From NCBI GenBank assembly GCA_017477435.1, contig JAFUVV010000043.1:1-61971 (forward strand): a DNA stretch of 61,971 nucleotides, written 5' to 3'. The notes under the pieces are model-generated. The model saw only the letters and a program-made list of their open reading frames with translations. It was not told the origin of the DNA and ran no database searches. Shown here one piece after another: positions 29,034 to 44,123 of the stretch (its first letter is position 1; each line of letters starts with the position of its first letter). The stretch is from Prevotella sp. (GTDB taxonomy: Bacteria; Bacteroidota; Bacteroidia; Bacteroidales; Bacteroidaceae). A program made the position numbers and the translations under genes.

Positions 29034-29360
29034 TATACCGAAAATTAATGTTTTTTTATAGTTCGCGCGCCCACGAAAGCACATCGTCGCTGCCATCGCA
29101 CGCTGTCTCTATTATGAACGATGAAAAAGAAGTTTTCGAAGTTTTTTAAGATTCCTAAAACGGACAAAAATAACGAAATACACGAAAAAAGTTTTTGCAT
29201 TCTTTCGGCGTTTTAGCCCTTTAAGGGGTAAAGACCTCGATATTCTAGAATAGGTAAAACCACGAATCACACGAATCTGACGAATCATTTCGTGTTTAAA
29301 TCCGCGAGATCTGCGTGAGTGTAAATCATTCAGTGCAAAAAAGAATGGAAATTTAATTAA
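29034..29360. other. Intergenic region with degenerate ACCACGAATC-type repeats
   Basis: No gene is supported here. A run of related short words (ACCACGAATCACACGAATC, then ACGAATCATTTCGTG) lies at 29256-29295. A stretch at 29143-29190 (GATTCCTAAAACGGAC) resembles 31982-32025 (GATTCCTAAAACGAAC). CATTCAGTGCAAAA at 29327 repeats at 31957. These repeats frame the LRR and DUF2971 genes. Confidence 0.5.
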
Positions 29361-29398: not shown

Positions 29399-29449
29399 TC
29401 GTCTTATCTTACCACAGATTTAGCAGATAAAACAGATTCTTTTTGATTT

Positions 29450-40099: not shown

Positions 40100-40128
40100 C
40101 GGTGTTTTTGAAAAAACCTAAGCAAATT

Positions 40129-41979
40129 ATGTCTCAAAAAGAGCAAATTGAAGTGAAACAAATAGAGCAGGTTGTGGTGCGTTTCTCGGGCGACTCGGGC
40201 GACGGCATGCAGCTTGCAGGTAACATTTTCTCTGCTGTGTCGGCATCGGTGGGCAACGGCATCTCCACCTTTCCCGACTACCCTGCCGACATCCGTGCAC
40301 CGCAAGGGTCGCTGACGGGTGTGAGCGGATTTCAGGTGCATGTGTCGGAAGGGCAGTCGTTGACGCCAGGCGACAAGTGCGACGTGCTTGTTGCCATGAA
40401 CGCCGCGGCGCTGAAGACGCAGTATCGCTATGCACGGCAAGGGGCTACGATAATCATCGACACCGACAGCTTCGGACCAAACGACCTGCGTAAGGCTGAA
40501 TTTCAGACAGACGACTATCTCGCTGAGATGGGCATCGACAGCGACAACGTGGTGGCATGCGCCATGACGACAATGGTGAAGGACTGTCTGGCCGACAGCG
40601 GAATGGACAACAAGTCGATACTGAAGTGCCGCAATATGTTCGCACTCGGGCTCGTATGCTGGCTCTTCAACCGCGAAGTGGAGGGCGTGGAGAATTATCT
40701 GCGCGAGAAGTTTGCAAAGAAACCTCAGATTGCCGAGGCAAACATTCAGGTCGTGCGTGCCGGTTACGACTACGGAAACAACACCCATGCTTCGGTGCCT
40801 GCCACATACAGGATAGAGACGAAGACGAAGGTGCCTGGGCGATATATGGATATCACCGGCAACAAGGCTACGGCCTACGGACTCATCGCTGCTGCCGAGC
40901 GGGCAGGGCTGAGGCTCTATCTGGGCTCATATCCCATCACTCCCGCAACCGACATCCTCCACGAGCTCTCGAAGCACAAGTCGCTTGGTGTGACCACCGT
41001 GCAATGTGAGGACGAGATAGCAGGTTGTGCCTCGGCCATCGGAGCCGCCTTTGCAGGAGCACTCGCCGTGACGAGCACGTCGGGACCGGGCATCTGCCTG
41101 AAGTCGGAAGCCATGAATCTGGCGGTGATCGACGAGCTGCCGCTCGTTGTCATCGACGTACAGCGCGGCGGACCGTCGACAGGACTGCCCACGAAGAGCG
41201 AACAGACCGACCTGCTGCAGGTGCTCTACGGACGCAACGGTGAGAGCCCGATGCCCGTGATTGCTGCGACAAGCCCCACCGACTGCTTCGACAAAGCATA
41301 CATGGCGGCAAAGATAGCACTCGAACATCTCACTCCTGTCGTGCTTCTCACCGATGCCTTCATCGCCAACGGATCGGCAGCATGGCGACTGCCAAACGTG
41401 GAGGAATTGCCGGAGATACGTCCACACCGCGTCAGCGACGAGATGAAAGATGGCTACACTCCCTATCTGCGCGACGAAGAGACATGCGTCAGATACTGGG
41501 CAGTGCCTGGTCAGGAGGGATTTCAGCACATCCTGGGCGGACTGGAGAAAGACGGTAAGACGGGTGCCATAAGCACCGACCCCGAGAACCACGACAGCAT
41601 GGTGCGTCTGCGTCAGCGGAAGGTGGAGCTCATTCCCGTGCCCGACCTCGAGGTGCTTGGCGACAAGGACGATGCCGAACTGCTTATCGTAGGATTCGGC
41701 AGTACATACGGTCATCTCTACTCGGCAATGGAAGAGCTGCGAAAAGAGGGCTGCAAGGTGGCCATGGCGCAGTTCAGCTTCATCAACCCCCTCCCGCAGA
41801 ACACCGCAGAGGTGCTGCGCAGATACAAGAAGGTGGTCGTGGCCGAACAGAACCTCGGACAGCTCGCCGCCTATCTCCGCACGAAGGTCAGTGGAGTAAA
41901 CATCCTGCAGTACAACGAGGTGAAAGGTCAGCCCTTCACAGTAGAAGCCCTCGTGAAGAATATAAAGCCCGTCATCTGA
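40129..41979 (+). CDS. korA: 2-oxoacid:acceptor oxidoreductase, alpha subunit (gamma-alpha fusion), 616 aa
   Basis: The first 190 residues form the gamma domain (VVRFSGDSGDGMQLAGNIFS), followed from about 205 by the alpha pyrimidine-binding domain (LYLGSYPITPATDILHELS, TSTSGPGICLKSEAMNLAV). The C-terminal transketolase-like part ends VVVAEQNLGQLAAYLRTKV. This is the KorA type that oxidises 2-oxoglutarate (or a related 2-oxoacid) with CoA and ferredoxin. Its beta subunit is encoded at 42929, but the pair is split by a 950-bp insert with a GxxExxY gene. Confidence 0.9.
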   Translation: MSQKEQIEVKQIEQVVVRFSGDSGDGMQLAGNIFSAVSASVGNGISTFPDYPADIRAPQGSLTGVSGFQVHVSEGQSLTPGDKCDVLVAMNAAALKTQYRYARQGATIIIDTDSFGPNDLRKAEFQTDDYLAEMGIDSDNVVACAMTTMVKDCLADSGMDNKSILKCRNMFALGLVCWLFNREVEGVENYLREKFAKKPQIAEANIQVVRAGYDYGNNTHASVPATYRIETKTKVPGRYMDITGNKATAYGLIAAAERAGLRLYLGSYPITPATDILHELSKHKSLGVTTVQCEDEIAGCASAIGAAFAGALAVTSTSGPGICLKSEAMNLAVIDELPLVVIDVQRGGPSTGLPTKSEQTDLLQVLYGRNGESPMPVIAATSPTDCFDKAYMAAKIALEHLTPVVLLTDAFIANGSAAWRLPNVEELPEIRPHRVSDEMKDGYTPYLRDEETCVRYWAVPGQEGFQHILGGLEKDGKTGAISTDPENHDSMVRLRQRKVELIPVPDLEVLGDKDDAELLIVGFGSTYGHLYSAMEELRKEGCKVAMAQFSFINPLPQNTAEVLRRYKKVVVAEQNLGQLAAYLRTKVSGVNILQYNEVKGQPFTVEALVKNIKPVI

Positions 41980-41988
41980 TGTGATATA

Positions 41989-42193
41989 TTTTACCACAGA
42001 TTTCTCTGATTTATCAGATTTTAAATCTATGTGGTAGGTAAGAAGGAGATTTCACAGATTCTATAACATGATGGAATAATTTAGGCATGAGATCTTAAAG
42101 CCTCAGATTTATGGAAAAGTTTTACCACAGATTTCTCTGATTTATCAGATTTTAAATCAATGTGGTAGGCGAAAAGTAGATTTCACAGATTCT
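41989..42193. repeat. Two copies of a 74-bp TACCACAGATTTC repeat, left of the GxxExxY gene
   Basis: Copies at 41989-42062 and 42120-42193 differ at a few positions. Each starts TTTTACCACAGATTTCTCTG and contains inner dyads (TACCACA with TGTGGTA; CTGAT-TT-ATCAG) that can fold into a nested hairpin. The outer words are the inverse of the repeats on the other side of the gene at 42636-42916. So the gene is framed by inverted repeat clusters. Confidence 0.85.
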
Positions 42194-42224
42194 AATAAGA
42201 AAGATGTGATTGTTCTGAGCAGGA

Positions 42225-42611
42225 ATGGAAGAGTTTAAGTATAAGGATAAGACCCACAAAATAATTGGAGCTGCAATGGCAGTTCATCGTTTTTGGGGTT
42301 GTGGATTTACGGAAAAGGTGTATCAAGATGCACTTGAAATTGAGTTGCAACAGGAAAACATTCCGTACAAAAGAGAACAACCGCTCTCCGTTGAATATAG
42401 TGGGGTAAAGTTGAAGTCGGAATTTATGCCTGATTTCATATGTTATGATGATATTATCGTAGAATTAAAAGCCGCGAAGGAAATTGAAGACATTCATCGC
42501 TCTCAAGCACTTAATTATGCAAAAGTGTCGGGGTGTGAAATAGCATTACTGATTAACTTCGGGCAGGTGTCCTTGCAGTTTGAAAGGTTCATAGTTGGCC
42601 GAAAAAATTAG
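42225..42611 (+). CDS. GxxExxY protein, PD-(D/E)xK nuclease-like, 128 aa
   Basis: The family motif is GFTEKVY (Gly27, Glu30, Tyr33). The nuclease-like core is PD at 69-70 and E80-L-K82 in IIVELKAAKEI, as in the PD-(D/E)xK superfamily. A later segment (QALNYAKVSGCEIALLINFG) completes the fold. The family is common in Bacteroidetes and its role is unknown. The gene has lower GC than korA and korB, is framed by inverted repeat clusters and splits the kor pair, all signs of insertion. No transposase is present in the insert. Confidence 0.85.
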   Translation: MEEFKYKDKTHKIIGAAMAVHRFWGCGFTEKVYQDALEIELQQENIPYKREQPLSVEYSGVKLKSEFMPDFICYDDIIVELKAAKEIEDIHRSQALNYAKVSGCEIALLINFGQVSLQFERFIVGRKN

Positions 42612-42635
42612 TATAGAAACCTATCAATCTACTAT

Positions 42636-42916
42636 AATCAGTGAAATCGTATATGAGTCGGTGTCTTTGATAGAATTGAATCTGTTTAATCAGTGAAATC
42701 TGTGGTATGGCTCAAGTATCATAAATCAGTGAAATCGTATATGAGTCAGTGTCTTGATGGGATTGAATCTGTTTAATCAGTGAAATCTGTGGTAGGGCTC
42801 AAGTATCATAAATCAGCGAAATCGTATATGAGTCGGTGCCTTTGATAGAATTGAATCTGTTTAATCAGTGAAATCTGTGGTAGAAATAAATATAAAGTCT
42901 GTGGTAGAAATAAATA
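42636..42916. repeat. Three tandem copies of an 87-88-bp repeat, right of the GxxExxY gene
   Basis: Copies begin with AATCAG at 42636, 42724 and 42811 and each contains AATCAGTGAAATCTGTGGTA, the reverse complement (one mismatch) of the start of the left-side repeats. The third copy runs into two short copies of CTGTGGTAGAAATAAATATA just before korB. Any korA-korB mRNA would carry all of these. Confidence 0.85.
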
Positions 42917-42928
42917 TAATAAAAGTAT

Positions 42929-43945
42929 ATGGAAAGTAATAGTACATTTCAGCTCTCTGATTTCAAGAAGGGACAGCCGCGGTGGTGTCCGGGATGTGGC
43001 GACCACTTCTTCCTCGCTTCTCTTCACAAGGCAATGGCCGAGATCGGCGTTGCGCCACATCAGACTGCCGTCATCTCAGGCATCGGCTGTTCGTCGCGAC
43101 TGCCGTACTACGTGAACACTTATGCGATGCAGACCATCCACGGTCGTGCTGCGGCAATTGCCACCGGTGTGAAGGTGACCAATCCGGAGCTGACGGTATG
43201 GCAGGTGTCGGGCGACGGCGACGGCCTGGCCATCGGGGGAAACCATTTCATTCACGCCATGCGACGCAACATCGACCTGAACATGATTCTCCTGAACAAC
43301 CGCATCTACGGACTCACGAAGGGGCAGTATAGTCCCACGTCGCCCCGCGGATTCGTGTCGAAATCGAGTCCCTACGGCACCGTGGAAGACCCGTTCCGCC
43401 CTGCCGAGCTGTGTTTCGGGGCCCGCGGCAAGTTCTTCGCCCGCACCGTGGCCAACGACGGAGCCCACACCGTGGAGATGCTGAAGGCTGCCCACGCCCA
43501 CAAAGGAGCATCGGTGGTGGAGGTGCTGCAGAACTGCGTCATCTTCAACAACGGAGCCTACGACCCGATATATACCAAGGACGGGCGCAAGCGTAATGCC
43601 ATCTACGTGGAGCACGGGAAGCCCCTCGTCTTCGGAGAGAACAATGAGTTCGGACTGATGCAGCAGGGCTTCGGGCTCAAGGTGGTGAAGATTGGTGAGA
43701 ACGGAGTCACTCTCGACGACATTCTCGTGCACGATGCCCACTCAGAGGACGACACGCTGCAGCTGAAGCTCGCGATGATGTCGAACGAGGACGGATTCCC
43801 CGTGGCGCTCGGAGTGATACGCGACGTGAAGGCACCCACCTACGACGAGGCGGTGAACGCTCAGATTGAGGAACTCAAAGCAAAGAAACCCTATCATAAC
43901 TTCGCCGAACTACTCGAGACGAACGACATCTGGGAGGTGAAATAG
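42929..43945 (+). CDS. korB: 2-oxoacid:acceptor oxidoreductase, beta subunit, 338 aa
   Basis: The thiamine diphosphate motif is clear (VSGDGDGLAIGGNHFIHAM, then LLNNRIYGLTKGQ). The N-terminal CPGCGDHF and SGIGCSSRLP segments hold Cys residues conserved in the family. With the alpha subunit at 40129 it makes the KorAB enzyme that converts 2-oxoglutarate to succinyl-CoA with ferredoxin. The start lies 12 nt after the repeat array. A strong terminator follows at 44124-44164. Confidence 0.92.
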   Translation: MESNSTFQLSDFKKGQPRWCPGCGDHFFLASLHKAMAEIGVAPHQTAVISGIGCSSRLPYYVNTYAMQTIHGRAAAIATGVKVTNPELTVWQVSGDGDGLAIGGNHFIHAMRRNIDLNMILLNNRIYGLTKGQYSPTSPRGFVSKSSPYGTVEDPFRPAELCFGARGKFFARTVANDGAHTVEMLKAAHAHKGASVVEVLQNCVIFNNGAYDPIYTKDGRKRNAIYVEHGKPLVFGENNEFGLMQQGFGLKVVKIGENGVTLDDILVHDAHSEDDTLQLKLAMMSNEDGFPVALGVIRDVKAPTYDEAVNAQIEELKAKKPYHNFAELLETNDIWEVK

Positions 43946-44005: not shown

Positions 44006-44090
44006 AGTACAAAAGCCATGTACTTGGAGTACGAAGGACGTGTACTCGGAGTACAAAGCCCATGTACTCGCAGTACAAGGCCTTTGTACT
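44006..44090. repeat. Four-unit array of AGTACA/TGTACT dyads, 22-nt period (array 2)
   Basis: Units at 44006, 44028, 44050 and 44072 are 19 nt each with 3-nt spacers (TGG, CGG, CGC). Unit 2 (AGTACGAAGGACGTGTACT) has a changed base in its left arm that can still form a G-T pair in RNA. Unit 3 is identical to unit 2 of the array at 18792. It lies between the korB stop and its terminator. Confidence 0.9.
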
Positions 44091-44123
44091 GCATACGAGG
44101 AATTGTTTCGATATAAATGAATG

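Follow-up and report, generated by a model that had tools for sequence, protein, structure and literature searches.

The small module that separates korA from korB in the window (the whole 61,971 nucleotide stretch of Prevotella sp. DNA analyzed here) probably represents a duo of a nuclease and a repeat that is RAYT/REPIN-like in its logic and homing-like in its spread, with an enzyme that is unrelated to RAYTs. The observations behind this reading are the anatomy of the module, repeat words that are associated with nuclease lineages and change in concert, dispersed gene-less hairpins, purifying selection on the nuclease, and horizontal replacement of the unit at a fixed site.

Upstream of the module is the host gene korA (40102-41979, + strand), which encodes the alpha subunit of a 2-oxoacid:acceptor oxidoreductase, and downstream is korB (42929-43945, + strand), the beta gene of the same oxidoreductase; both neighbors were identified by profile match. 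Left repeat 1 (41989-42063, + strand) and left repeat 2 (42120-42194, + strand) are each 75 nt long, share the same layout and are 93% identical, and in the first of them a 28 nt stretch (41993-42020) consists of three C-NN-ATT words at 9-nt steps, with GAGATTTCACAGATTC further inward. Next come the 128-amino acid GxxExxY gene (42225-42611, + strand), which is the only long ORF of the module that reads as a gene, and three right repeats of 87 nt each that start at 42667, 42754 and 42842 and carry the inverted triple word on the - strand as right arms 1, 2 and 3 (42679-42707, 42766-42794 and 42854-42882, respectively). The third right repeat is 63% alike over the whole unit, the likeness lying in its first half, and a truncated right arm with a single word (42895-42909, - strand) is also present. 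In short, an arm of the module consists of three copies of the six-base word C-NN-ATT set 9 nt apart. When up to 3 mismatches are allowed, the window has 6 matches to TACCACAGATTTCTCTG, of which 5 lie within the module (0.07 expected). The GC fraction across the module is 0.33-0.40 vs. about 0.55-0.60 around it, family profile searches gave no transposase match for its long ORF, and Rfam has no match within it. The preliminary description of this DNA, in which a GxxExxY nuclease-like gene framed by two left and three right repeats parts korA from korB in a low-GC module with no transposase, is therefore borne out by repeat comparison and profile searches. It had also pointed to two places near 29256 and 29410 as possible scars of other copies, and these are genuine single arms that lie between ORFs: at 29411-29438 (+ strand) CAGAT, the word of the module itself, is found three times with 9-nt steps, and 29259-29286 (+ strand) has a different word, CGAATC, in the same threefold layout. 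Outside this pair at 29.3-29.4 kb, the window has no set of three identical C-NN-AT(C/T) words with a period of 9 nt (mean 0.0 in 200 block shuffles), a pattern that skips the module's own arms since their middle word differs.

The GxxExxY protein passes the curated cut-offs of TIGR04256 (5.9e-40) and PF13366 (PDDEXK_3; 1.2e-37), and its name-giving motif is present. Among the GxxExxY proteins compared, G27, E30 and Y33 are invariant in 120 of 120, D70, K82, Q94 and Y98 in 119 of 119, and E80 in 118 of 119; the window's protein has all of these residues. An AlphaFold2 model of it (pLDDT 94) finds its best solved folds in 4ic1 (SSO0001, which we take to be a Cas4), a DinG, lambda exonuclease and Cas4, and a sequence search of solved chains gave nothing better than E 0.3. 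The fold of the predicted model thus agrees with D70, E80 and K82 in assigning a PD-(D/E)XK nuclease, as had been proposed. In the 6 of 16 orthologue pairs with a computable dS the dN/dS ratio is 0.02-0.09 (dS is below 1 in five of those six), and the protein and its active site are under strong purifying selection. No PADLOC model matches the protein, PHROGs gave one weak endonuclease match (0.0071), and a search of viral contigs found no relative. Neither profile nor fold searches gave it an HUH-type tyrosine transposase identity, so it is not an enzyme of the RAYT/TnpA-REP kind.

Are such inverted flanks a general property of GxxExxY genes? We drew on 60 genomes of the genus, 148 Bacteroidota genomes, two named MAG contigs and 8 plasmid records (five phyla). 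GxxExxY genes are present in 41 of the 60 genus genomes and 74 of the 148 Bacteroidota genomes, and also in plasmid records of other phyla; the 122 distinct genes examined include part of the matches listed in the genus and Bacteroidota genomes. Flanks of at least 120 nt were required, which left 120 loci (2 were dropped for short flanks), and the threshold was the 99th percentile of mismatched left/right flank pairs taken from different loci. Inverted flanks exceed it at 71 of the 120 GxxExxY loci vs. 6 of 154 control ORFs of the same loci (Fisher 9e-26), and the flanks have an autocorrelation peak at lag 9. These 71 divide into 57 of 82 in the genus (including the two MAG contigs), 12 of 30 in the phylum and 2 of 8 in the plasmid records; one is a Bacteroides plasmid in which radA is followed by ACCACAGAGGACGCAGAGGACACGGAG and then by the GxxExxY gene. 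Among the control ORFs above threshold, that of L131, two in L138 and that of L044 carry words like the GxxExxY flanks of the same locus, the one in L189 is by eye similar to the PF05635 family, and the sixth is in L121. The remaining 49 of 120 GxxExxY loci are below threshold, some of them with a word pattern visible by eye, and at one such locus CACGCGAAGGCGCGAGGACGCGAAG precedes a GxxExxY gene between fabD and fabG in Sphingomonas. The expectation that GxxExxY genes elsewhere would have inverted flanks is thus upheld at many loci, mostly with words of their own and not with the inverted words of the module. The GxxExxY gene is co-oriented with both neighbors in 84 of 111 loci vs. 26 of 50 control gene triples, most of which are from the window (p 0.0036), and this is consistent with insertion that spares operons. 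In six close orthologue pairs compared at other loci the flanking genes are kept in 6 of 6, which indicates that the GxxExxY gene moves rarely there.

The korA-korB junction itself is empty in most relatives. Among the 54 genus genomes with a strong korB match, a GxxExxY gene lies between korA and korB in 11 and is absent beside korB in 43, so that the module is far from universal at this site, as would be asked of a mobile unit. Fifty of the 54 junctions were read, including every site at which coordinates place a GxxExxY gene beside korB, and the remaining four hold no such gene there by coordinates. The 39 junctions read that have no GxxExxY gene comprise 34 gaps of 0-191 nt and 5 that hold another gene, identified by profile match as PF05635 (23S_rRNA_IVP) in L075, L088 and L111, one of them with a broken frame, and DUF559 in L112 and L113. 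By eye these PF05635 and DUF559 genes have inverted flanks of their own (TTAAGAGTTAAGAATTAAG.. and CCCCC..GGGGG), and the junction between korA and korB is possibly a hotspot for elements with small genes. At the L098 junction there is a remnant with an internal deletion, which retains arms and the first part of a GxxExxY reading frame, and L110 has a gene-less hairpin there. Together with L038 and L039 the 11 occupied sites give 13 kor-site nucleases (13 of 52 is not a rate, because L038 and L039 entered for encoding a relative), and these 13 form one clade among the 120 (SH-aLRT 97); in a careful tree of 17 sequences the kor clade has 12 members and support of 74/67. Among near relatives (L087 and L097-L118) the 3' end of korA was seen to encode ..EIINK at several occupied sites and ..EDILKK at several empty ones; the ..EDILKK codons may carry the korB ribosome-binding site, and co-conversion or lost translational coupling are possible readings.

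Was the unit at this junction inherited along with its host genes? The korA-korB tree has weak resolution, with stars on 6 of its 49 inner branches; it requires 9 changes of occupancy, of which at least 3 are forced by starred branches, and across 66 pairs the identity of the nucleases is uncorrelated with that of the flanking korA-korB genes (rho 0.14, p 0.26). In genomes G025 and G031, a pair picked after the trees had been seen, korA-korB are 98% and PckA 99% identical, the nucleases are 65% identical and their words are different; an AU test rejects the two nucleases as sisters (p 0.0015). Such near-identical flanks around so different a nuclease and word mean that horizontal exchange has replaced the unit while its site stayed the same. 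The G025 nuclease is closest to that of G039 (79%), with PckA 92% and korA-korB 67% identical, a comparison that alone proves little because the G039 korA-korB genes are oddly divergent. Plain vertical inheritance at korA-korB was dropped on the strength of the occupancy tree and the disagreement between nuclease and host genes, and horizontal spread into one conserved site, as in homing genes, is what is found there. The earlier proposal of a minimal homing or self-copying element stands to the extent that the unit is repeat-bounded and mobile, being absent from most relatives, replaced at the junction and accompanied by dispersed gene-less copies.

The arms at the kor site were compared in 12 aligned elements (L099 was left out, as its spacing differs). 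The words differ between species and change in concert within an element: comparisons within an element show identical variable dinucleotides in 118 of 180 cases, and those between elements in 586 of 2376 (0 of 20000 permutations as high). Thirty-four cells are changed on both sides, a value reached in 0 of 500 shuffles and with slid controls far below it; two of the five paired-change measures are unexceptional, as 34 of 500 shuffles were as high for pairs with change on both sides and 409 of 500 for further pair types. Unpaired cells number 11 of 216 in the word columns vs. 36 of 72 in the linkers that separate words, so it is the word and not the stem that is kept. Such a pattern in the arms would be expected if the word is recognized as DNA, rather than if a stem is under selection.

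The relationship between words and nucleases extends beyond this site. Nuclease lineages differ in word, and among 100 elements, the more alike two nucleases are, the more 6-mers their arms have in common (rho 0.21, 0 of 500 Mantel permutations as high; rho 0.185 when kor-kor pairs are removed). The window's own genome (2.32 Mb, 78% complete) has 7 GxxExxY genes, and the flanks of the other six carry short repeats of their own and not the module's word. When the 60 genomes were searched for the CACGGTT triple word of L128, 57 matches were in the owner G034, 1 was in G059 and the other 58 genomes had 0; the orthologue L144 at the same locus in G032 has no arms, and G032 has 0 CACGGTT matches vs. 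57 in G034. The word of L001 has 8 matches in its owner, 7 of them adjoining the gene, and 1 elsewhere, and that of L004 has 8 in its owner (3 adjoining the gene) and 8 across seven other genomes. GACATAGTAACATAATAACA has 103 matches, 62 in six genomes where a nuclease of one clade (the GACATAG clade) was seen and 41 in seven genomes where none of that clade was seen; these seven include G026 and G014, which have GACATAG words and no GxxExxY match, and five further genomes with a nuclease of this clade have none of those words. In nine genomes with a kor element that were judged by eye, the commonest dispersed word suits the kor nuclease in 6, which is not beyond chance.

Words also occur as copies without a nuclease gene. 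In the window's own genome the module's word with up to 2 mismatches has 34 matches (5 in the module and 29 on other contigs; the reversed pattern has 0), and 23 of 25 matches checked are outside ORFs of at least 100 amino acids, though such ORFs cover 78% of those stretches. Many of these dispersed copies are, by eye, symmetric gene-less elements of about 150 bp. A degenerate genus-wide form of the word has 366 matches in 20 of 60 genomes (reversed control, 1), and it is present in 19 of 41 genomes with GxxExxY genes and 1 of 19 without them. Among the matches listed, on contigs with at least two of them, neighbors within 350 nt are convergent in 47 cases, divergent in 2 and in the same direction in 22. 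Overall these gene-less hairpin elements are roughly 80-150 bp long and mostly intergenic and are, like REPINs, dispersed inverted pairs of a word. G034 has in addition a high-copy CGGATT hairpin family of about 80-90 bp with a 55-nt arm spacing; of 20 copies, chosen as convergent pairs, 14 span 79-82 nt between the outer word ends, and these have sharp ends and an inner palindrome. No target-site duplication was seen by eye in the 20 copies, all read as occupied sites. None of the five GxxExxY loci seen in G034 has a nuclease that matches the CGGATT family, and the family was perhaps left behind by a nuclease that has since been replaced. Some of its copies are flanked by TGTGTCAT/ATGACACA. 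In L016, L019, L032, L014 and L028 the inner palindrome AAAAGATTTCACAGATT..AATCTGTGAAATCTTTT of gene-less elements of about 150 bp resembles a two-way transcription terminator.

How might such units be copied? We suggest that the GxxExxY protein recognizes the array of words in the arms around its own gene and cuts or nicks the DNA at that point, and that the breaks or excised hairpins would then be repaired or re-inserted. The gene would be carried, arms included, to the same junction on other chromosomes in the manner of a homing gene, and arm pairs without the gene would be copied in trans, as small hairpins, to further intergenic sites, much as RAYTs are believed to do with REPINs; nuclease lineage and word would change together. 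Binding and cutting of the word by the protein, and the copying chemistry, are what we infer from these patterns. In a rival reading the GxxExxY protein is a homing enzyme only, which cuts the empty korA-korB junction and is copied into it by break repair, with the arrays being incidental, regulatory or parasitic. A single dedicated nuclease clade at the kor site, patchy occupancy, disagreement of nuclease and host genes, and last korA codons that by eye differ between several occupied and empty sites, as co-conversion would leave them, all agree with this; it nonetheless leaves unexplained the arms on many other GxxExxY genes, the lineage-associated words and the dispersed hairpins with the same word, and we consider it unlikely. 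Alternatively, the words could be REP- or MITE-like repeats spread by another, unseen enzyme, with GxxExxY genes riding between two copies, an idea favored by word families that have no matching nuclease and by the PF05635 and DUF559 genes that have their own inverted flanks at the same junction. It is made distinctly improbable by the excess of inverted flanks at GxxExxY loci over control ORFs, by words that track nuclease lineage, by one word that is almost confined to its owner genome (57 of 58 matches) and by the lack of a transposase in the window's module.

Could the arms act in RNA, by forming a transcript stem that undergoes processing or brings about termination, in the manner of 23S rRNA intervening sequences? 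The frequent co-orientation of the genes with both neighbors and the terminator-like inner palindromes that some gene-less copies show by eye would suit that role, which we regard as very improbable, since half of the linker cells within arms are unpaired, G.U is not favored over A.C among sense-strand arm mismatches (81 vs. 69, p 0.37, 80 elements) and the module has no Rfam match; an RNA-stem function was rejected on the mismatch test and the linker pairing. It is scarcely credible that the protein is an anti-phage defense nuclease whose flanks are unrelated repeats: its PD-(D/E)XK fold, with Cas4 and phage exonucleases among the nearest solved structures, would be in keeping with that, but no PADLOC model recognizes it and the neighbors that were read are housekeeping genes (korA-korB, radA, fabD/fabG). 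A nuclease paired with its own repeat is the reading we retain for the module. More tentatively, and with the balance slightly against it, GxxExxY genes as a whole might supply the enzymes for mobile DNA of a class of its own, characterized by a private word with a 9-bp period, re-insertion at fixed junctions across species, gene-less hairpin spread and co-evolution of word and enzyme, with the PF05635 and DUF559 genes at the junction as parallel elements.

The module shares features with several known systems. IS elements with MITEs consist of a gene-bearing unit with terminal inverted repeats plus short gene-less copies, and the GxxExxY unit likewise has terminal inverted repeats, gene-less copies and a deleted remnant (L098 at korA-korB); it differs in that the window's module has no transposase and that no target-site duplication was seen. 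To our knowledge free-standing homing genes have neither terminal inverted word arrays nor dispersed gene-less copies, and GxxExxY units have both. They are nevertheless like the free-standing homing endonuclease genes of T4-like phages, as described in the available portions of two papers, in being small nuclease genes between host genes that are patchy at one site and disagree with the host tree (PMC2988022, PMC10448857). The 23S rRNA intervening sequence with its S23/IVP gene is, in the accessible text of its description, a 428-nt unit with one small ORF (PMC4990558), a similar layout, and the IVP family itself is at korA-korB in three relatives; the GxxExxY unit has a different protein, is outside rRNA and has arms that are kept as DNA words and not as an RNA stem. 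A close parallel is with RAYT/TnpA-REP enzymes and REPINs (REPtrons), for which the available parts of two reports describe one distinct enzyme gene per repeat class with cognate short words, inverted pairs that form intergenic hairpins, repeat clusters beside the gene and co-evolution of enzyme and word (PMC3116915, PMC8266576), all of which have counterparts here. Unlike RAYTs, which are HUH/tyrosine enzymes, the GxxExxY enzyme is a PD-(D/E)XK protein encoded between the arms, each of which has the word in triplicate with 9-nt steps, and the whole unit undergoes horizontal exchange at one fixed site.

The GxxExxY annotation is common, and we found no function described for it. A GxxExxY gene has been noted as a neighbor of a CRISPR-like reverse transcriptase in the part of PMC8934634 available to us, and the term also occurs in the accessible text of PMC12085832. 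The open-access literature (subscription papers were outside its scope), searched also for TIGR04256 and the literal repeat words, yielded no description of such nuclease-word elements and nothing on Bacteroidetes palindromic repeats that are dispersed and accompanied by a nuclease gene, and none of the papers listed on REP, REPIN or MITE repeats mentions PDDEXK. The design has the look of a mobile DNA class that this literature, as far as we could find, does not describe. A link to cognate dispersed words would give GxxExxY proteins a function and explain many unnamed intergenic repeats, and, if true, would place a second, unrelated enzyme family beside RAYTs as keepers of REPIN-like repeats. 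The code between enzyme and word can be tested directly with the twelve intact natural orthologues of a single site, which have several words among them. Another dispersed repeat of the same genome consists of arrays of GTACATGGGCTTTGTACTCGGAGTAC-like units, seen at 44016-44095 in the window and in L013, L018, L026 and L030, and these arrays are often close to the nuclease-associated words.
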